Source: Aromatoleum aromaticum EbN1
GTDB lineage: Bacteria > Pseudomonadota > Gammaproteobacteria > Burkholderiales > Rhodocyclaceae
Assembly (NCBI RefSeq): GCF_000025965.1
Contig: NC_006513.1
Coordinates: forward strand, 4,023,400 to 4,087,399
Direction: 5' to 3'
DNA: 64,000 nt
The notes beneath the pieces were generated by a model. It searched no databases, was not told the DNA's origin, and was given only the letters and a program-made list of their open reading frames with translations. This document shows, piece after piece, positions 52,077 through 63,725 of this stretch. Position numbers and translations under genes: made by a program. Position 1 is the first letter of the stretch. The number at the start of each line of letters is the position of its first letter.

Positions 52077-53306
52077 TCAAGCCGGTGATCGCAGCGCGCG
52101 AAGCTCCAGCCAGCCAGCCCCTTGCGGGCGGGCGATCTCGACGGCACGGCGCAGCGAAGCGGCGGCGGCTTCCCTTTCCCCGCTGCGACAGGCCAGCTCG
52201 CCGTCGAGGCGCCACAGCTCGGCCTCGAGATAGCGCTGGCTGCAGCGCTGTGTCCACGAGAGCGCCTCGCGTGTGGCGGCGCGTACCGGGCGGAACTCGC
52301 CGAGCATGCCGCGCGCCCGGGCGAGCAGCACCGCCCGCATCGTCGGGGTGAGCACGGCCTCACTTCCGTCCGACGAGATCCCGGCGCGAACAGCTTCGAT
52401 GACGAAGAGTGGATTGCCTTCGGTCTCGCGCCAGAGTCGTGCCGCGAGCGTCGCAGTGGTGGCTTCGTCGAGTCGGTCGAGTGGCACGGTGGTCACTGCC
52501 TGGTCGTGGCCCAGGGCGTCGACGAGTCCGACGAGGGGATGATGCGATGGGATCTCCTCCCAGCGGACCGTACCGACGATCGGAGCAGGTCGATGACGGG
52601 ACCCGATCCCCTCGCCCGGTGCCACCCCGAGCTCGCGCTCGAGCACCTCCGCATAGCGGTGGTAGGCGCGCAGCGCCGCGGCTCGATCGCCAAGCGCGAG
52701 GTGTGCTGCCATCTGAAATCGAACGGCCGCTTCGTCGGTCGGCTCCAGACCGATGATGCGTTGGGTATGCCTGAGCGCAGCCTGGTGGTCGTTGCGCCTC
52801 GCGGCCTCTTCGGTCAGCCGCACGAGGACCCGATATGCCTCGGCGCGAAGTGTCGCTCGCTCATCAACGACACAGTCGTCATAACAGGCGGGAAGGAGAT
52901 CGCCCCCATAGAGGCGCGCGGCGAGCTCGAAATCGCCGGCCGCCACGGCATCCCGGAACCTCAGCACGTCGACCTCGCTCGGCCCGGTCGCGATCCACCG
53001 CACCGGCTCGTTGTCGATCTCGACGAACTCGCCGCTGTCCGGAAGGGCATGACGGAAGTCGTGGAGCAGCTTTCCGAGGTTCGTGCGCGCCTGCGCTTCG
53101 TCGGAGTCGGGCCAGAGCTCGAACGCGAGTCGTGAACGATGCTGCGGGTCGCGGCGCAACGCGATCAAGCCCAGAAACCGTTGCAGGCGAAGCGAATTGA
53201 AGGCGCGAAGACGCCGGCCGTCCAGGATGATCTCGACTGCACCAAGCAGTCGGACCTGTAAGCGCGTCGGCCGTTCGCCACCGATGCCGCTCGTGTCACT
53301 CGGCAT
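52077..53306 (-). pseudogene. BTAD/SARP-type transcriptional regulator with internal and C-terminal losses
   Basis: 409 codons, open. Residues about 16-110 form an OmpR-like SARP DNA-binding domain (LQVRLLGAVEIILDGRRLRA, SLRLQRFLGLIALRRD), and about 110-235 a bacterial transcriptional activation domain of helical repeats ending ERELGVAPGEG. Relatives of this type then carry a P-loop ATPase and long TPR region, about 1000 residues in all. Here no Walker A is present. The sequence jumps to pieces of the ATPase (HPLVGLVDALGHDQAVTT, WRETEGNPLFVIEAVRAG), then to a piece of the far C-terminus (ATREALSWTQRCSQRYLEAE), and stops early at RSPA. The DNA-binding part could still work. Function as a shortened regulator cannot be excluded. 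Confidence 0.65.
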
Positions 53307-53662: not shown

Positions 53663-54154
53663 TCAGGGACGTTCGTTCCCTTCAGTGTCGGTCCAGATTT
53701 CGATCTGGCGCAGTACCGAAAGCACGATCCACGTGATCACGGTCGCGGCGATCGCAACGCCGAAGCGCCCCAGCCCGATCGTCACGCCGATCGCAGACGT
53801 CATCCATATCCCCGCGGCGGTCGTCAGCCCGCGGATGTTGTTTTCCCTTTCGCGCTTCAGGATCGCGCCCGCGCCGAGGAAACCGATGCCGGTGACCAGC
53901 CCCTGGATGACGCGCGACAGGCCGGAACTGTCCATCCCTCCCTCCACCGCCGCGATGACGAACAGCGTCGAGCCGGCGGCGACGAGGATATGCGTGCGCA
54001 ATCCGGCAGCCTTTCCCGCACGTTCGCGCTGCATGCCGATGACGGCGCCGCACAGCAGCGCGACCATCAGGCGCAACATCGGCCTGACGAGTTCATGGAA
54101 CCCCCCCAGCCCGGCAGTGAGTTCGGCGAGAATCGTATCCAAGGCTGCCTCCAT
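53663..54154 (-). CDS. MgtC/SapB-family membrane protein
   Basis: 163 residues with four or five hydrophobic helices (LRLMVALLCGAVIGMQRE; LRTHILVAAGSTLFVIAAV; IGFLGAGAILKRE; TTAAGIWMTSAIGVTIGLG; FGVAIAATVITWIVLSVL). The motifs GAVIGMQRERAGKAAGLRTH and GFLGAGAI are signatures of the MgtC N-terminal domain. MgtC proteins act in survival at low Mg2+ and on ATP synthase control; this one lacks the soluble C-terminal domain of MgtC proper and resembles SapB/YhiD. ATG 54154 (MEAALDTILAEL). Confidence 0.88.
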   Translation of the reverse strand: MEAALDTILAELTAGLGGFHELVRPMLRLMVALLCGAVIGMQRERAGKAAGLRTHILVAAGSTLFVIAAVEGGMDSSGLSRVIQGLVTGIGFLGAGAILKRERENNIRGLTTAAGIWMTSAIGVTIGLGRFGVAIAATVITWIVLSVLRQIEIWTDTEGNERP

Positions 54155-54267
54155 GGCCCCGCGGATGCGCGGCGCCGGGAATGAGTGCAGCCCGCATGCA
54201 CGTGCCACGCATGAACCAGCAATTGCAGTGCCTCGGGCCGTTCTCGCCCGAACGCGTATTCAACGAC

Positions 54268-54831
54268 TCAACGCGACCGCAGCAGCGACGGCGGTTCCGG
54301 CTCGGGCGCACGTGGCGCCAGCTGCAGCGTGTCGCGCTCCGCCTCTCGCGCTTCCCGCGCCAGCGCCCGCAAGCACAGCGCGACGGTGCCGGCGAAGACC
54401 TCGTCGTACCACGGGAACGCGCCGCTCGCGGCGACGACGATGCCGTCGAGGCACACGCCCCCCGCGAGCAGCGTGTCGCCGGTGCACAGCAGGTGCGGGA
54501 ACTGGTGCTGCACGACTCGGCCGTCCCTGCCGGTCATCCAGCTCAGACGCGCCTTGGCGCAGGCGAACGCGGCGTAGTCGGCGTCCCACGCGGCGCGATC
54601 GCCGAACGCGTGCTCGTGCAGGATCGCCTCCTCGAACGACGCGGTGCCGGGCGGCCGGCACGGGTCCATGACGACGACGTGGAGAAAGCCGCTGCCGACG
54701 ACGCTGCGGTCGCGCATCGCGTGCTCGATCATCGGCGCTGCCAGCGCGATCGCGCGGCGGGCGGCGGCAGGCGTGAGGTAATGGCTGCCGGCGCCGGGGG
54801 CGGCAGGCACATCTTCATTCAGTGTCGTCAT
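54268..54831 (-). CDS. Hypothetical protein of unknown fold
   Basis: 187 residues, soluble. An N-terminal helical part (YLTPAAARRAIALAAPMIEHA) is followed by alpha/beta sequence with HVVVMDPCRPPG and DGIVVAASGAFPWYDEVFAG; the C-terminal 20 residues are Pro/Glu-rich. The general layout (LTPAAARRAI ... DGIVVAASG) recalls GlcG/HbpS heme-binding-like proteins, but I do not claim membership. In the minus-strand cluster, 54 bp after the ABC fusion gene. Confidence 0.5.
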   Translation of the reverse strand: MTTLNEDVPAAPGAGSHYLTPAAARRAIALAAPMIEHAMRDRSVVGSGFLHVVVMDPCRPPGTASFEEAILHEHAFGDRAAWDADYAAFACAKARLSWMTGRDGRVVQHQFPHLLCTGDTLLAGGVCLDGIVVAASGAFPWYDEVFAGTVALCLRALAREAREAERDTLQLAPRAPEPEPPSLLRSR

Positions 54832-54885: not shown

Positions 54886-57606
54886 TCATGGCGGCGGCTC
54901 GAGGGCCGGTGGCGCAGGCACATCGGTACGCCGTCCGGCAAGGTTCGCGATCACGGCGACGAGCTCGTCGGCATCGACCGGCTTCGCGATGCACACCTGG
55001 AACCCGGCTAGCATCGCGCGCATGCGGTGATCACCGCGATAGGCGCTCAGCGCGACCGCGGGCAGACGCTCGGCGAGGCCGAACCCGTGCTCGACCTCGA
55101 AGCGGCGCAGCTGCCGGATCACCTCGTAGCCGTCCTCCTCGTCGCCGAGCGCGACGTCGCAGACCAGGATGTCCGGCCAGCGGGAACGCGGCAGCGCGAA
55201 CAGCCCTTGGAGCGCCGCGGCGCCAGACGGGCTGGAACGCGACAACGCGCCGTGCCGGTTCAGCAGCGCCTCGAGCTGCGCACGTATTTCGGCGTTGTCA
55301 TCGACGACCAGCACGTTGATTCCTGAAATCGACGGCGCCGCGAGCGCCGGAGTGCCCGCGACAGGCTCTGCGCCGCCTTGCGCTGCGGCGGCCCCGATCG
55401 CTGTCGTCCCCCGCAGCGGAAACTCGACGACCGCCCGCACGTCCCCGTCCGGGTCGCGCCGCAGCTCGATCGTGCCGTGGTGCTGCTCGACGATCGCACG
55501 GATCCTCGTCAGGTCGAGCTGCGGGACCCCGGCGGCAGGTGGAGGCTCCGCGTCGGCCGTCTTCCCGGCGTGGATGAAGCTCACACGCAGGCGCTCGCCG
55601 ACGCGCTCGATGCGCCACTCGGCGCGACCGCCCGGCGGCGTGGAGGCGATCGCGTTCTCGGCCAGCGCCCACATCACCTGCTGCAGCAGCCCCGGATCGC
55701 CGGTGATGCGCACCGGATCGGCGGTGATCGTGCTGTAGAAGCCGATGCCGCGCGCATCGATCGCGGCGCGCAGGCCGTCGACGACGCCCGCGAGCAGCGC
55801 GACGAGGTTGATCTGCTGCGTCGCGAGACCGCGTTCGGCGCGCTCGACTTCCTGCTGCTGGCGCTGCAGCTGCCACAGCTGCGCGTAGATCCCGCCCTGG
55901 CGCAGCAGGTGGTCGTGCGAGCCGCGCTCGACGACGCGGCCATGTTCGAGCACGAGGATCTCGTCCGCGTCGACGACCGTCGACAGGCGGTGCGCGATGA
56001 TCAGCGTCGTGCGCGTCTTCGCCAGCCGGTCGAGCTCGTCCTGGATCGCCCGTTCGGAGCGCGTGTCGAGCGCCGACGTCGCTTCGTCGAACACCAGGAT
56101 CGGCGGATTCTTGAGGATCGCACGCGCAATCGCGATGCGCTGCTTTTCGCCCCCCGACAGCATCACTCCGCGTTCGCCGACTTCGGCGTCGTACTGGTTC
56201 GGCAACGCCGAGATGAAATCGTGCACGTGGGCGGCCTTCGCCGCGTCGATCACTTCGGCGAGCGAGACGCCGGGACGCCCGTAGGCGATGTTGTATGCGA
56301 CGGTGTCGTTGAACAGGATCGTGTCCTGCGGCACGATGCCGAGCGCCGCGCGCAGGCTGCGCAGCGAGACTTCGCGGATGTCCACACCGTCGATCAGGAT
56401 GCGTCCGCCGCCGACCTCGTAGAAGCGGAACAGCAGCCGCGCCAGCGTCGATTTGCCCGACCCGCTGCCGCCGACGACCGCCACTGTGCCGCCGGGAGAG
56501 ATCGTGAAGCTCACGTCCCACAGGATCTGCCGGTTCGGCTCGTAGCCGAAGTCGACGTGCTCGAAGCGCACCTCACCGCGCGAAACCGCGAGGTCCGCGG
56601 CCTGCGCCGCTTCGCCGATCTCGGGCTTCTGTTCGAGCAGGCGCAGCATCTTCTCGGCGTTGACCGCCGCATCACGCGTCTGGCGAAAGACGAAACCGAG
56701 CGAGTTCAGCGGCAGGCAGATCTGGATCACGTAGGCATTGACCAGCACCAGGTCGCCGATCGACATCGTGCCCTGCACGACGTTCTGCGCCGCCAACAGC
56801 ATCACGACGGCGACACCCACCGCGATGATCGCGCTCTGGCCGATGTGCAGCATCGACAACGCCTTCTGGTTCTTGACGCCGACGTCGACCCAGTCGTCGA
56901 GGATGGTGCCGAAGCGTCGCTGCTCGTAATGCTCGTTGGTGTAGTACTTGACTGTCTCTTGGTTCAGCAGGCTGTCGACGAGCCGGCCGTTGGCGCTCGA
57001 ATCGAGCTCGTTGAGCGCACGCTGGTAGATCGCCCGGCGCTCGGTGAACAGCACCGTGAAGCTCGTATACACAAGAAAGGTCGCGAGGATGACGCCGGTG
57101 AACCAGTCGCTGTAATTGAGCGTCATGATCACGATCACCGCGATGATCTCGATCATCGTCGGCAGGATCGTGAACAGCCCGACGCCGAGCAAAAACCCGA
57201 TGCCCGCCGTGCCGCGCTCGACGTCGCGCGTGACGCCGCCCATGCGGCGCCTGGCATGGAAACGCGAGCTGAGGCGGTGCAGGTGCTGGAATACGTCGAG
57301 GAGGAATCCCGACACCGTTTTCTGCGTGACGAGCACGAACACCACGTCGCGCACTTCGCTGAAGAACGTGCCGAGAAAGCGCAGCAGCGCGTAGCCGAGC
57401 AGCAGGAAAACCGGCAGGACGGCGACCGGTGCGGCGCCGAGGTTGTCGATGATCGCTTTCAGCGCCAGTGGCACCGCGACCACGGCGAGCTTCGCGAGGA
57501 CGACCAGGCCGAGCGCAGCGGCAGTGCGCTGCGGATAGCGAAGCACCGCTGCCGACAGCAGGCGCAGGACGAAGCCGCGCGTCGAGGGCGGCGAGGAAGC
57601 TCTCAT
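54886..57606 (-). CDS. ABC exporter fused to degenerate histidine-kinase ATPase and receiver domain
   Basis: 906 residues from ATG 57606 (MRASSPPSTRG). Six-helix exporter domain of Atm1/HlyB type (about 15-320). Complete NBD (about 345-580): Walker A GGSGSGKS 379-386, signature LSGGEKQR 483-490, Walker B ILVFDEAT 503-510, H-loop His539. Then comes an addition not found in normal exporters. Residues about 585-732 resemble a histidine-kinase ATPase (N-box-like QQVMWALAENAIASTPPGG with Asn651; VEFPLRG end) but lack a HisKA His, and the G-box position reads LDLTRIRAIVEQHHG, so the ATP lid glycines are lost. Residues about 763-890 are a receiver with VVDD (767-770), phospho-acceptor Asp817 and Lys875. 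A substrate cannot be read. Confidence 0.85.
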   Translation of the reverse strand: MRASSPPSTRGFVLRLLSAAVLRYPQRTAAALGLVVLAKLAVVAVPLALKAIIDNLGAAPVAVLPVFLLLGYALLRFLGTFFSEVRDVVFVLVTQKTVSGFLLDVFQHLHRLSSRFHARRRMGGVTRDVERGTAGIGFLLGVGLFTILPTMIEIIAVIVIMTLNYSDWFTGVILATFLVYTSFTVLFTERRAIYQRALNELDSSANGRLVDSLLNQETVKYYTNEHYEQRRFGTILDDWVDVGVKNQKALSMLHIGQSAIIAVGVAVVMLLAAQNVVQGTMSIGDLVLVNAYVIQICLPLNSLGFVFRQTRDAAVNAEKMLRLLEQKPEIGEAAQAADLAVSRGEVRFEHVDFGYEPNRQILWDVSFTISPGGTVAVVGGSGSGKSTLARLLFRFYEVGGGRILIDGVDIREVSLRSLRAALGIVPQDTILFNDTVAYNIAYGRPGVSLAEVIDAAKAAHVHDFISALPNQYDAEVGERGVMLSGGEKQRIAIARAILKNPPILVFDEATSALDTRSERAIQDELDRLAKTRTTLIIAHRLSTVVDADEILVLEHGRVVERGSHDHLLRQGGIYAQLWQLQRQQQEVERAERGLATQQINLVALLAGVVDGLRAAIDARGIGFYSTITADPVRITGDPGLLQQVMWALAENAIASTPPGGRAEWRIERVGERLRVSFIHAGKTADAEPPPAAGVPQLDLTRIRAIVEQHHGTIELRRDPDGDVRAVVEFPLRGTTAIGAAAAQGGAEPVAGTPALAAPSISGINVLVVDDNAEIRAQLEALLNRHGALSRSSPSGAAALQGLFALPRSRWPDILVCDVALGDEEDGYEVIRQLRRFEVEHGFGLAERLPAVALSAYRGDHRMRAMLAGFQVCIAKPVDADELVAVIANLAGRRTDVPAPPALEPPP

Positions 57607-57716: not shown

Positions 57717-58166
57717 TCAGTGGCTCGGAGGCTGCCAGTAGTTCTGCTGGCCGTAATAGGCGTGTATTTCACTCGCCCAGGTGGTGTCGGCCATGCTCGG
57801 CCAGTGGTCCTTGTCGAATCCCGGAGCGTTCTTCAGCCGTTCGGCGTCCACGTCGAGGATGAAGCACTTGCGGTCCGTATCGAGCGTCAAGGCGCCCCAC
57901 GGGATCGCAAAGAGCTTGCGCCCGAGACCGAGGAAACCACCCGTCGACAGCACTGCGTACGCGACCCGGCCGCTCTGCACGTCGATCATGACCTCCTTGA
58001 TATTGCCCAGGTCTTCGCCGGCACGATTGACGACGTCATCGCCTTCCAGCGTGCTCGCCGCCATGACCTGGGGGCCGGGTCCGCTGCGGTCTTCGTTTCC
58101 CGAACCGACGATGTCGGCGTGTTGAGTGGTAGTGGTGGTGGTGCCGGGAGGATTGATGCTTGCCAT
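57717..58166 (-). CDS. PRC-barrel domain protein
   Basis: 149 residues. Thr-rich N-terminus, then a PRC barrel (about 35-115: VMAASTLEGDDVVNRAGEDLG, IKEVMIDVQSGRVAYAVLSTGG, KLFAIPWGALTL). The C-terminus (HAYYGQQNYWQPPSH) is aromatic-rich. ATG 58166 (MASINPPGT) has AAGGAG at 6 nt. Such proteins are usually stress-induced, and this one sits between the ABC fusion and the BON protein. Its binding partner is unknown. Confidence 0.88.
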   Translation of the reverse strand: MASINPPGTTTTTTQHADIVGSGNEDRSGPGPQVMAASTLEGDDVVNRAGEDLGNIKEVMIDVQSGRVAYAVLSTGGFLGLGRKLFAIPWGALTLDTDRKCFILDVDAERLKNAPGFDKDHWPSMADTTWASEIHAYYGQQNYWQPPSH

Positions 58167-58241: not shown

Positions 58242-59213
58242 TCACTCCCTGCTTTGTCCTTTCGACTCGCCGGAGGAGCTTCCTCGTCCGCCCGAATCGC
58301 CCGGCTCCGGTTGCCCGGATACCGATCGCCCGGACGAAGCTCCGGTTTCCTGCGCGGCCCGATTCGACGATGCCTCGAAACGGGCGAACGACTCCGCTCC
58401 CGCCGGAGGCTCCGGAGCGCGGATGCGCAGGTGGTTTTCGATGTCCTTCACGCCCCAGCAACTGTCCGCGACGTCTTCGATCACGTGCTTCATGTAGCGC
58501 TCCGGAACGGTCCCTTCGAGCGTGACGCAGCCGTCCGAAACATTCACCGAGACCTCGGTGACGTCGAGCGACCGGTCCTGCATGAGGCGCTCGCAGACGA
58601 CTTCGCGAAGACGCTCGTCGGAACGCGAATAGCCTTTCGGCCCCTGCCGGCCGCGCCCGGCGCCGCTCCACAGCGGCATGCCGCGGTATTGCGGGGTGCG
58701 GCTGCAGGACGGGCTGCCGACGTACGGCAATTCCTGGTCCTGAATCCACTGGCCTTGCGACGACCCGTAGTCGCCCGCGCCGAAGCCGCCGCGCAGGCCG
58801 CCCTGCTGGAAGCGCCCCGGAGTGGGGTCCACCGGGCCGTAGTCCGCGTCGCCGGAAACCCCGTGATACGGCCGGTTGCCGCCGTACCCACCCCCTTCGA
58901 GACTCCCGCCCGGGTTGCCCCTGCGCCAGTCCTGGAGGTTAGGGTCCTGGCCGGACCGTCCGTATTCCTGGCTCGTGCGTCCGCCGAACGAGCCTTCCCG
59001 CACCGAGCCATAGCCTCCTGCCGAACCCCCGTCGTCGAAACCGCGCTGGCTGTCCTGCAGCTGTTGCGGCTGGCGCGATCCGCTGCCCTCGCCCTGTCCG
59101 TACACAGCGGGGGGTTTGCCATAACCCGGCCCCGGCATGCCGGGGCCACCTTGTCCGCGGCGGACCTCTTCGTCGTGCTGCCGTGTTGGTTGCGAACGAT
59201 GTCGTTTCATCAT
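58242..59213 (-). CDS. Gly-rich protein with a BON domain
   Basis: 323 residues from the MM start at 59213 (AGGAGG upstream). The first about 200 residues are low-complexity, rich in Gly, Tyr, Gln, Arg and Ser, with repeated GGYGG/YGG-like units. A single BON domain follows (about 225-285: LREVVCERLMQDRSLDVTEVS, CVTLEGTVPERYMKHVIEDV) and then a Ser/Gly-rich tail. No signal peptide is visible, which is unusual because most BON proteins (OsmY, Kbp) are periplasmic or small. The low-complexity arm resembles an RNA-binding or phase-separating tail. Confidence 0.8.
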   Translation of the reverse strand: MMKRHRSQPTRQHDEEVRRGQGGPGMPGPGYGKPPAVYGQGEGSGSRQPQQLQDSQRGFDDGGSAGGYGSVREGSFGGRTSQEYGRSGQDPNLQDWRRGNPGGSLEGGGYGGNRPYHGVSGDADYGPVDPTPGRFQQGGLRGGFGAGDYGSSQGQWIQDQELPYVGSPSCSRTPQYRGMPLWSGAGRGRQGPKGYSRSDERLREVVCERLMQDRSLDVTEVSVNVSDGCVTLEGTVPERYMKHVIEDVADSCWGVKDIENHLRIRAPEPPAGAESFARFEASSNRAAQETGASSGRSVSGQPEPGDSGGRGSSSGESKGQSRE

Positions 59214-59412
59214 CGTGCTCCTCCTGCGCGATCGGTGAGGGGCCGGAGCGCCGCCTTGCGCCGGCGACCCTGCTCCATCTTCCGCGGAGAGTGGCAAACG
59301 TCGTGCCCACGGTGGGCGCCCCGCCGAACGGCCCGATGGCCGTTACGGCAGCGCAAGGCGTGCAACGATTACAGGAGGGTGCAATTAGCGGCGCGAACCG
59401 GCGCGGCCAGTG

Positions 59413-62400
59413 TCACGCCGCCGATGCCTGGCGGCGTTGCGCGTCGAGGTCCGCGACGTCGAGTGTCGCGGCGATGGTCTCGATCAGGATCCGCGCCTCG
59501 ACCGGTTTGCCGACGCATTCCTGGAAGCCGGCGAGTTCGAAGCGCGTGCGGTCGAGGCGACTCAGGGCGGTCACTGCGACTGCCGGGATGAACGGCAGCG
59601 AAGCCAGCTCGCGCACGCGCTGCAGCACGCTGAAGCCGCTGTCGCCCGGCATCGCTATGTCGAGCAGCAGGATTGCCGGCAGGCTGACGGCATCCGGCCG
59701 GGCGAGCTCCGCGAGGAGCTCGGTGCCGGAACTGAAGGTGCGCACGTGCGCACCGGCCTGCGACAGGATCAACGTCATCACTTCGCGCGCGTCCGCCTCG
59801 TCATCGACAACCAGCACGTCGACACCTTCGAGCGCAATGCGCGGCGGACGGCCTTCCCGCGCCTCGGGCGATTCGCCCGGCAGGGCGTCCTGCACCGGGC
59901 GGGGCAGTTCCACCGTGAATACCGACCCGCAGCCCGGCCCGGCGCTCTCGACGCGCACTGCGCCGCCGTGGAGTTCGACCAGATTGCGCACCAGCGCAAG
60001 CCCGATCCCGAGGCCCTGGTGACGACGCGTCATCGACGTGTCGGCCTGGCTGAAGCGGTCGAACACGTGCGGCAGAAAGCCGGCCTCGATGCCGACCCCG
60101 GAATCCGCGACCGACAGGATCACCGACGTCTCGCCCTGGGCCAGGCGCAGCTCGACCCAGCCGCCTTCGGGCGTGAACTTCAGCGCGTTCGCGAGCAAGT
60201 TGATGACGATCTGCTGCAGCCGGTCGTGGTCGCCATTGATCATCAGCGAGGGGCAAGCGGTATCGACGCGCAGCTCGATCCGTTTCGCCTTCGCCGTATC
60301 CCACGAAAGGTCGATCGCCGCGTGGACGATTTCGACGAGATTCACGCGGCGGCTGTTCAGCTCGAGCTTGCCGCTGATGATCCGCGACGTGTCGAGAAGG
60401 TCGTCAATCAACCGCGCCTGATGGTCGATGTTGCGCTTGATCGCCTCCGCCGCGCGCAGCACCGTCGCCGGTTCGGGATTGCCCGACGCGGTCAGCACCT
60501 GGCTCCAGCCTTTGAGCGCGTTCAGCGGCGAACGCAGCTCGTGCGAAACGATCGCGAGGAACTCGTCCTTCGCGCGGTTGGCGCGTTCGGCCTCACCGCG
60601 CAGACGGTGTTCGGCGACGAGCAGCTGTTCGAGTTCGCGCTGCGCACGCTTGCGCTCGGTGATGTCCTTGGACACGCCGACGAGCCCGAACACGTGCCCC
60701 TGGGAGTCGCGCAGCGGCGACTTCGTCACGAGGAAAGTGCGCGTGCCGGCGCGTGTCGTGCGCGATTCCTCGACGACGATCGGCCGGCGCGTCTCGATGA
60801 CGCGGCGGTCGTTTTCGAGGATGCGCCGCATTTCCTCGGAGCTGCCGAAAAGACTCTCTTCCTTGTGCCCGACGACCTGCGCGCGACTCAACCCCATCGC
60901 CTGCAGCGCGGCTGGATTGACCATCATGATGCGGCCTTCGCGACTTTTCGCGACGATCAGCTCCGGGGTGCTTGCAGCGATCGTGCGCAGCAGCGTCGTG
61001 CTCTCGCGCAGCACCGACATGGTTCGTTCCAACGCCCGCGTGCGGTCGCCGACGCGCCGGTCGAGAGCGGCGTAGGCCTGCCGGTCCGCATGTTCCCGCG
61101 CGCGATGGGCGCGCGCGTCGCGGAGCACCAGCACACCGCCGTTGATTCCGCCTTTCCAGTCGCGGATCGGCGTCGCGGTCGCCTCCACCGCGCGCACGCT
61201 GCCATCGCGCATGCGCAGTCCCGGTTCCCCGCTGATCGTCACCTGGCCCAGCTCGGAAAATGCCCTCGCGAACGGTGATCCCATCGGCTGGTCGGTCGCT
61301 TCGTCGACGAGCACGACCAGCTCCTGCAGATCGCGGCCGATCGCGTCGCCGACCTTGACATCGAGCAACGTCTCCGCTGCAGGGTTGAGGAACCCGACAC
61401 GCATCTCGTTATTGACGGTGATGACCGCGTCCTCGATGGTGGCAAGCGTGACCTCCAGCCACTGCTGCTGCGTGTTGGCGCGGATCTCGGCAATCGAACG
61501 GTCGGTGTTCATCTCGTCGAGCCGGGCAGCAGTCCACAGGATCAGGACCGTGCACGCGACGATCATCGCAACTGCCACGACCCCTTCGCCCTCGATCACG
61601 CCGAACCATCCGAAGCGCTGACCCAGTGCCTGCAGCCAACCGGCCAAGAGCGGCACGGCGATGGCGACCGGCAGCAGGCGGCGGAAAATCACCGCGCCGG
61701 GCGAATCGTGCTCGAGCAACTGTATGAACCGCGGCGGCGGATTCCTCAACAGCAGGCTGAAGCTCGTGATCAGCAGCGCCAGCGCCACCGGCAGCGCGAT
61801 GCCGACCGAAGGGATCGCGAGGTTCAGGCGGACGAAATGGAAAGTCAGCCCGACTACCGCCACCAGCGCGACGCCGCCGACGGCCACCGCGAGCAGCCGC
61901 GAGATCGCGACCAGGCGGGAGTCGCTCAGGGGCGCGAGCGCCAGCGCTGCGGAAAGGAGGAGGTAGGTGGTGGCTGTCCCGACAGCCGGCCCGGAAGGGG
62001 AATAAATGGATTCGGATTCGGCCGGCGGCAGCAGGGGCGACAGGACCATGCCGACCGGATCCGGTCCGATCGTCAGCGCCATCATCGACATCAGCGCGAC
62101 GGCAACGGCCGCGAAGGCGACGGTGAAACGTGCGCGCGCGGCCGGCGCGCGATCGAGCTCGCGCAACGCGAAGGCAATGAACAGGAGCTTGACGATGCTG
62201 GTCGGCAAGAACGGCACGAACTCCGCTCCCAGCGTTCCCAGAGCGGGCATCCCGACAAACCACCCCACTGCGCCGATCAGCGCCAGCACCACGACGGCGG
62301 GACTGGCATACGCGGAGATTTGCCGGAGCCGCATCCCCCAGACGCTCGGGACCCGTTCCGCGGCAGCGGGAAGGAAGACGCTATCGCCCATTCGAATCGT

Positions 62401-62469
62401 CATCGGCATGGTCTCCGGTCTTGCGTCACCCTCGCGCAAAGACGGCCATGAGATGGCCATCCGGCTCAC
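59413..62469 (-). CDS. Hybrid sensor histidine kinase (membrane domain, two PAS, HisKA, HATPase, REC)
   Basis: 1018 residues, or about 990 from an internal ATG. N-terminal membrane-sensor region with eight or so helices (about 55-315, a MASE-like layout); PAS 1 (about 335-450) and PAS 2 (about 490-605, ending GVSKDITERKRAQ). HisKA follows with His643 in IVSHELRSPLNALKGW, then HATPase with LLANALKFTPEGG, ADSGVGIE and GLGIGLALVRNLVELHGG. The C-terminal receiver has VVDDEADA and the phospho-acceptor Asp in LLLDIAMPGDSG, and ends with AGFQECVGKPVEA. That last block is close to AGFQVCIAKPVDA in the ABC fusion receiver encoded just downstream. No separate regulator with a DNA-binding domain lies nearby. 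Confidence 0.93.
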   Translation of the reverse strand: MSRMAISWPSLREGDARPETMPMTIRMGDSVFLPAAAERVPSVWGMRLRQISAYASPAVVVLALIGAVGWFVGMPALGTLGAEFVPFLPTSIVKLLFIAFALRELDRAPAARARFTVAFAAVAVALMSMMALTIGPDPVGMVLSPLLPPAESESIYSPSGPAVGTATTYLLLSAALALAPLSDSRLVAISRLLAVAVGGVALVAVVGLTFHFVRLNLAIPSVGIALPVALALLITSFSLLLRNPPPRFIQLLEHDSPGAVIFRRLLPVAIAVPLLAGWLQALGQRFGWFGVIEGEGVVAVAMIVACTVLILWTAARLDEMNTDRSIAEIRANTQQQWLEVTLATIEDAVITVNNEMRVGFLNPAAETLLDVKVGDAIGRDLQELVVLVDEATDQPMGSPFARAFSELGQVTISGEPGLRMRDGSVRAVEATATPIRDWKGGINGGVLVLRDARAHRAREHADRQAYAALDRRVGDRTRALERTMSVLRESTTLLRTIAASTPELIVAKSREGRIMMVNPAALQAMGLSRAQVVGHKEESLFGSSEEMRRILENDRRVIETRRPIVVEESRTTRAGTRTFLVTKSPLRDSQGHVFGLVGVSKDITERKRAQRELEQLLVAEHRLRGEAERANRAKDEFLAIVSHELRSPLNALKGWSQVLTASGNPEPATVLRAAEAIKRNIDHQARLIDDLLDTSRIISGKLELNSRRVNLVEIVHAAIDLSWDTAKAKRIELRVDTACPSLMINGDHDRLQQIVINLLANALKFTPEGGWVELRLAQGETSVILSVADSGVGIEAGFLPHVFDRFSQADTSMTRRHQGLGIGLALVRNLVELHGGAVRVESAGPGCGSVFTVELPRPVQDALPGESPEAREGRPPRIALEGVDVLVVDDEADAREVMTLILSQAGAHVRTFSSGTELLAELARPDAVSLPAILLLDIAMPGDSGFSVLQRVRELASLPFIPAVAVTALSRLDRTRFELAGFQECVGKPVEARILIETIAATLDVADLDAQRRQASAA

Positions 62470-63632: not shown

Positions 63633-63725
63633 TTTGAATTCTCCTTTGACTGATCTGCCGAAGCCGTTGCCAAGGCAAAGCCGCTGGCGTACTCGCCGGG
63701 TAGCAAACGGCGTGCCCGATGACAT

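Follow-up and report, generated by a model that had tools for sequence, protein, structure and literature searches.

An Atm1-type ABC half-exporter with a degenerate histidine-kinase ATPase domain and a receiver domain on one chain, conserved in Burkholderiales and linked to glycan genes

In a 64,000-nucleotide stretch of the Aromatoleum aromaticum EbN1 genome (NC_006513.1, positions 4,023,400 to 4,087,399; hereafter the window, in whose positions coordinates are given), we analysed a minus-strand gene (54886..57606, read from 57606 down to 54886) that encodes, in 906 amino acids and a stop codon, an Atm1-type ATP-binding cassette (ABC) half-exporter with a fused HATPase-like domain and a receiver domain. 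The kinds of component are known; on one chain they form a conserved architecture, of which no description was found, by title or abstract, in the open-licence literature that we searched; the labels of the tailed protein in plasmid records are just ATP-binding cassette or ABC transporter domain protein. The best reading of the sequence evidence, which we hold tentatively, is that the protein would export a glycan or glycolipid and would be modulated by phosphorylation of its own receiver.

The original prediction had placed an exporter, a degenerate HATPase and a receiver on one chain without stating a strand, and Pfam confirmed this order on the minus strand, with ABC_membrane at residues 31-296 of the 906-residue product, ABC_tran at 364-511, HATPase_c at 636-732 and Response_reg at 765-886 (52.4 bits). 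The HATPase_c match reached 27.0 bits in the whole exporter, barely over the cut-off of 26.4, and 29.5 bits in the tail alone. The transmembrane domain (56719..57516, minus strand) coincides with the ABC_membrane match, and the nucleotide-binding domain (NBD; approximately residues 346-582, 55861..56571, minus strand) was delimited by the ABC_tran match and by alignment. Together they make up a half-transporter with intact nucleotide-binding motifs, and the predicted completeness of the NBD was borne out by an alignment of 33 full-length tailed proteins (hereafter the 33-protein alignment), in which Walker A K385, LSGGE (483-487), D507/E508 and H539 are invariant. The approximately 320 residues that follow the NBD hold a degenerate HATPase_c-like domain (approximately residues 593-735, 55402..55830, minus strand), with no DHp domain ahead of it and with the ATP lid and G boxes absent, and the receiver (approximately residues 763-890, 54937..55320, minus strand). 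The absence of a HisKA histidine and of G boxes, also predicted, agrees with Pfam and with the alignment to kinases: HisKA had no Pfam match in the whole exporter at E up to 1 or in the tail alone at E up to 10, in a search whose program filters remove most matches above an E of approximately 0.1. Alignment to NaAtm1 (PDB 4MRN) stops at residue 582 and kinase homology begins at approximately 594, which leaves no space for a DHp domain. Structure comparison covered the ABC part (residues 6-587), and the tail was assigned its fold from Pfam, sequence matches and secondary structure in the full-length model.

A scan of genome contigs, of which the best 80 matches were retained, gave 79 loci. The tailed layout was present in 42 of them, which together with its occurrence in further genomes rules out a chance frame or a sequencing error that joined two genes; in the other 37 the match and the frame finish shortly after the NBD, as had been stated for Atm1-type exporters. 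The 42 tailed loci belong to Burkholderiales taken broadly, namely to Aromatoleum, Burkholderia, Paraburkholderia, Caballeronia, Trinickia, Pseudorhodoferax, Roseateles, Pelomonas, Mitsuaria and a Rhodocyclales metagenome-assembled genome. Plasmid records added five tailed loci, for a total of 47. Of 399 sampled genomes of the order, at least seven, the own genome included, had a match that extended to the tail (E up to 1e-190). Searched with the tail against 61 relatives (E up to 1e-20), eight genomes were matched, seven with the exporter (the own genome, G000, and G006, G007, G008, G010, G019 and G029) and one, G013, with a kinase only; among 274 genomes of the class (1e-18), the four matched were the own genome and three with kinase frames.

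In a tree of the ABC part (91 rows, quick method, with three distant paralogues on very long branches and an uncertain root), one clade of 37 rows is tail-less (36 loci and the own-genome paralogue L002) and the tailed proteins lie outside it, as does L022 of Dechloromonas, which has no tail and grouped with Rhodocyclaceae; the tailed or tail-less label changes three times on this tree. In a tree of the tails (quick method, some long branches), 54 exporter tails lie on one side of a branch and 25 kinases on the other (SH-aLRT 100), so that the fusion probably occurred once, and one fusion with loss of the tail in L022 is the simplest account. Repeated independent fusions are unsupported by the tail tree. 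Nor is the neighbouring kinase supported as the direct source of the tail, as it groups with the other kinases; the nearest kinase relative found for the tail was L112 (41% identity), whose frame is that of a kinase. The related tail-less exporter L116 is not among the rows of either tree.

Comparison of the two parts of the tail shows that the receiver was kept and the ATPase motifs were lost. The receiver signature is complete in the window exporter (acidic pair D769/D770, phospho-acceptor D817, switch residue S854, and K875 followed by P876). D769, D770, D817, Ser or Thr at 854, K875 and P876 are each found in 33/33 proteins of the 33-protein alignment, and D817 and K875, predicted to be intact, had been numbered correctly. 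The HATPase-like domain has a single invariant column, R668; the N-box Asn, present in the window exporter as N651, is Asn in just 16/33, and exporter tails lack the whole segment, from the G1 box across the ATP lid to the G2 box, that the homologous kinase L112 possesses. As judged from these motifs, the domain is a dead remnant of a histidine-kinase ATPase and the receiver is canonical. In eight protein pairs, the ratio of nonsynonymous to synonymous substitution rates (dN/dS; simple counting method, few pairs, some with high dS) was 0.06-0.27 for the receiver, 0.06-0.60 for the ATPase-like domain (highest for the pair of the window exporter and L115) and 0.03-0.23 for the ABC part.

The glutathione pocket was compared between 50 tailed and 37 tail-less proteins, with three distant paralogues dropped and L022 set apart. 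Six positions differ between the groups with at least 90% fixation in each (195, 210, 249, 254, 307 and 316). Q195 (NaAtm1 R210) and H254 (NaAtm1 N269) are found in 50/50 tailed proteins, whereas tail-less proteins have Arg at 195 (35/37) and Asn at 254 (37/37). The excerpt of PMC9000953 that deals with AtAtm3 lists T317, R324, R328, N387, Q390, L433, G437 and R441 as conserved pocket residues, and by residue offset Q195 and H254 correspond to R328 and N387 of that list; an excerpt of PMC6424863 names the equivalent Arg and Asn of R. capsulatus. The other six pocket residues are kept (R191, Q257, G304 and R308 in 50/50; T184 and L300 in 33/33 of the 33-protein alignment), so that the tailed exporter, with two of eight residues replaced, lacks the full glutathione pocket, which by these substitutions is altered throughout the tailed family. 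The same Gln and His are present in L022, in L116 and in the other exporters examined together with L116.

We counted as glycan genes GT9/waaF, carbamoyltransferase or GT1 in the fetched flank. They were present in 42 of the 47 tailed loci and in 0 of the 36 tail-less loci; some flanks were short at contig ends, and the reference genes were drawn from tailed loci, so that the zero refers to this cluster and not to all glycan genes. Taken singly, GT9/waaF was found in 41 tailed loci, carbamoyltransferase in 39, GT1 in 30 and PIG-L in 22, and five tailed loci (L019, L020, L029, L055 and L059) had none of the three counted genes. GT1 and PIG-L lie in the flank of L022, and glycan genes also adjoin the tail-less L116. 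The linkage spans several families with changing gene order and orientation. In the own genome, GT1 lies at G000:C1:4089952, 2.5 kb beyond the end of the window, followed by a short-chain dehydrogenase/reductase (SDR), a GmhB-like phosphatase, a heptosyltransferase II-like GT9 and a GT4; this GT1-SDR-GmhB-like HAD-waaF-GT4 group (L121:3773-8706) is a shorter cluster, to which many Burkholderiales loci add a carbamoyltransferase, another GT9 and a UDP-glucuronate decarboxylase. GT1, which resembles MshA under the cut-off (273.7 vs. 462.5 bits), was within approximately 15 kb of the exporter in G006, G007, G010, G019 and G693. With a carbamoyltransferase query taken from G029, close matches (64-68%) were found in G010, G019 and G693, relatives of only 41-42% elsewhere in the genome in G000, G006, G007 and G008, and none in G544 at 1e-40. 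No other flippase was found beside the glycan genes in the partial gene tables of four annotated plasmid loci, and the B. multivorans plasmid locus has an ABC importer-type gene set upstream.

The candidate phosphodonor is a hybrid histidine kinase with PAS, HisKA, HATPase_c and REC domains (59413..62469, minus strand). The suggestion that this kinase, 2 kb upstream, is the partner of the exporter met with mixed evidence. In its favour, an orthologue lies near the exporter in seven of the eight tailed Rhodocyclaceae loci examined (own, L019, L020, L108, L115, L120 and G019, not G029). Over all loci, HisKA kinases were found in the flanks of 20/47 tailed vs. 1/37 tail-less ones, in a count made with one query and a motif filter by which divergent kinases can be missed. 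An NtrC-type sigma-54 response regulator (L121:1655-3154, minus strand) separates the kinase side from the glycan genes and is 71-96% identical among those Rhodocyclaceae and Dechloromonas loci in which it occurs. Only two sigma-54-like sites (at most one mismatch) were found in the 64 kb, each on the minus strand with one mismatch: a -24/-12 site ahead of the BON-PRC-exporter genes (59294..59308, approximately 80 bp before the start inferred for BON) and a site ahead of the DUF883-side genes (63703..63717, upstream of the DUF883-like gene, towards the kinase). In L019, L020, L120 and L115, BON is likewise preceded by a sigma-54-like site at the equivalent position.

In the reading that we prefer, an Atm1-type half-exporter in the ancestor of a betaproteobacterial clade would have acquired, probably once, the C-terminal half of a hybrid histidine kinase, and the catalytic ATPase part would have decayed to a connector without ATP-binding motifs while the receiver stayed canonical. 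The exporter would belong to a glycan locus with an MshA-like GT4, an SDR, a GmhB-like phosphatase and heptosyltransferases, often with a NodU-like carbamoyltransferase and a PIG-L deacetylase, and its cargo would be the oligosaccharide or glycolipid of that pathway, probably moved across the inner membrane. In Rhodocyclaceae the hybrid kinase encoded nearby might phosphorylate D817, a task that other kinases might perform in other groups; phosphorylation would most likely alter dimerisation of the receiver or its packing on the NBDs of the homodimer, and would so tune ATP-driven export. The linked NtrC-type regulator would probably control transcription of the locus from sigma-54 promoters. 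The predicted phosphorelay control is consistent with a canonical receiver kept beside a decayed ATPase, fused probably once and inherited. A more specific proposal, which we regard as doubtful, is that one membrane kinase both activates the sigma-54 regulator for heptose-glycan synthesis and phosphorylates the exporter receiver, matching synthesis with export, with the dead ATPase coupling the receiver to the NBD.

Several observations weigh against the preferred reading. Two Rhodocyclaceae exporters outside the 33-protein alignment (L013/L107 and L014/L108) have Ala-Gly in place of the acidic pair; L108 also has Arg in place of K875 and Gly at 854, and Gly is found at 854 in the same-genus protein L120, also outside the alignment. 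For the L107-L108 pair, dN/dS was 0.47 for the receiver and 0.56 for the ATPase-like domain (0.22 for the ABC part); the kinase orthologue nevertheless lies near both exporters. L022 and L116 lack the tail yet retain Q195/H254, so some lineages manage without the receiver. Of the seven exporters with the kinase orthologue nearby, two (G010 and G019) have broken receivers, which indicates that the kinase persists without a usable receiver; G013 has a similar kinase with the same sigma-54 regulator beside it, in a genome that gave no exporter in the tail search (E up to 1e-20), and 27 of the 47 tailed loci have no HisKA kinase within the fetched flank. Elsewhere, the neighbouring kinases are of other kinds. 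No sigma-54-like site was found before BON in L107, L108 or L021, and the two sites in the window compare with 1.7 expected per 64 kb, which is no excess over chance. The loci are kin by descent and the counts therefore not independent. G008 gave no GT1 match in a genome search and the own genome has no close carbamoyltransferase orthologue (best match 41%), so that the glycan would not be uniform.

The broken receivers and fast-evolving tails of L107 and L108, the absence of a tail in L022 and L116, and the ATPase-like dN/dS of up to 0.60 in the pair of the window exporter and L115 would all be expected if the tail had been useful in the ancestor and were now a nearly neutral, fading relic. 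Against this stand the receiver residues invariant in 33/33 proteins and the low receiver dN/dS of the other eight pairs, and we consider such a relic very unlikely. The same strict conservation of the phosphorylation site is expected only if phosphorylation matters, which also counts against a role in localisation, in which the receiver would bind a partner such as a glycosyltransferase and place the exporter by the glycan enzymes, leaving the ATPase rate unaffected. Receivers without DNA-binding outputs often work by protein binding, and the linkage of a multi-enzyme glycan pathway in 42/47 tailed loci fits such a scaffold; no partner is known, and we consider it quite improbable.

The protein could also be an ordinary Atm1 that moves glutathione-linked compounds, with the glycan genes as neighbours through inheritance only. 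Two of eight pocket residues replaced in 50/50 tailed proteins, a linkage that persists in several families while gene order and orientation change, and a separate tail-less Atm1 relative in the same genome (51% identical) argue against this possibility, which is rather unlikely. Finally, the tail might serve as a flux-reporting co-sensor that docks on a kinase and reports the activity of the exporter, or that drains phosphate onto D817. ABC modules carry transporter information to the kinase in BceAB-BceS, a kinase-derived tail could dock on a kinase core, the better of two PDB sequence matches below an E of 0.001 is the kinase-like DivL, and kinase genes are neighbours of the exporter in the 20 tailed loci counted above; the other 27 speak against it, and sequence gives no direction of signalling. 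We judge a co-sensor unlikely, and retain export modulated by the receiver as the preferred reading.

Compared with known systems, the ABC part is like NaAtm1 in its half-transporter fold (47% identity over 477 aligned residues), its NBD motifs and six of eight pocket residues, and differs from it by the C-terminal tail and by Gln and His for the pocket Arg and Asn. The tail is homologous to the HATPase_c and receiver domains of hybrid histidine kinases such as L112 and the window kinase, whereas it lacks the DHp/HisKA His, G boxes, ATP lid and sensor of these kinases, which an ABC exporter replaces. DivL (PDB 4Q20; E = 1.4e-5), the best PDB sequence match of the ATPase-like domain, is a kinase-like membrane signalling protein with PAS domains, not a transporter. 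Mycobacterium Rv1747 and CFTR are ABC exporters under protein-phosphorylation control of the Ser/Thr type; they are comparable in working only, having a phosphorylation-related domain on an ABC protein, which here is an aspartate receiver. BceAB-BceS and CbrA couple transport modules to two-component signalling, and in them the transporter or transporter domain informs the kinase, whereas here the receiver sits on the exporter itself. With its similar neighbours, the exporter might belong to the low-oxygen-activated locus of B. cenocepacia; the excerpt of PMC6127331 on that locus does not mention it.

The usual outputs of two-component receivers are DNA binding, enzymes or motors, and a receiver built into an ABC exporter would, if the preferred reading is true, be a direct switch on transport and offer a single-protein system for measuring phosphorylation control of an ABC motor. 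The family supplies its own controls, with intact receivers, broken receivers (L107 and L108, which with the acidic pair gone and a fast-evolving tail are natural loss-of-function controls) and tail-less members (L022 and L116). The family also draws attention to an uncharacterised pathway for a heptose glycan, with a pump derived from Atm1 in which the glutathione pocket has changed. The glycan cluster, the changed pocket, the breadth of the family and the probable HbpS-like partner gene described below go beyond the original prediction.

The exporter probably shares its operon with several minus-strand genes. The first gene of the putative operon encodes a BON-domain protein (58242..59213, start codon inferred), and a PRC-barrel protein is encoded directly upstream of the exporter (57717..58166). 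Downstream lies a gene for a 187-amino-acid protein (54268..54831), probably HbpS/GlcG (DUF336)-like, with homologues in 14/47 tailed loci and at L022. This protein has no Pfam match of its own and carries conserved WDADY and GIVV..SGA motifs; among its 14 homologues, Pfam gave an HbpS-like match in 1/14 (E = 0.0062) and QslA in 5/14 (best E = 0.0013). Its model (pLDDT, predicted local distance difference test, 82.7) resembles DUF336/HbpS-like proteins at modest scores: Foldseek returned nothing at E up to 0.001, and its best match had an E of 2.8e-3 (probability 1.00), with template-modelling (TM) scores of 0.46-0.50 by query length for EfgA and OrfY/DUF336. An MgtC-family membrane protein (53663..54208, same strand) is probably encoded in the same operon, near whose end lies a frame (52077-53306) for a BTAD-domain transcriptional activator-like protein.

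Elsewhere in the own genome, at L110 (G000:C1:2340000-2358000), approximately 5 kb separates a second carbamoyltransferase (34-41%) from an additional ABC exporter (38% to the query), and this may be another glycan-export locus. At several Paraburkholderia and Burkholderia loci (L098, L023-L027, L030, L049 and L096), genes for manganese catalase, ferritin-like proteins and hemerythrin lie beyond PIG-L, suggesting a redox-stress island.

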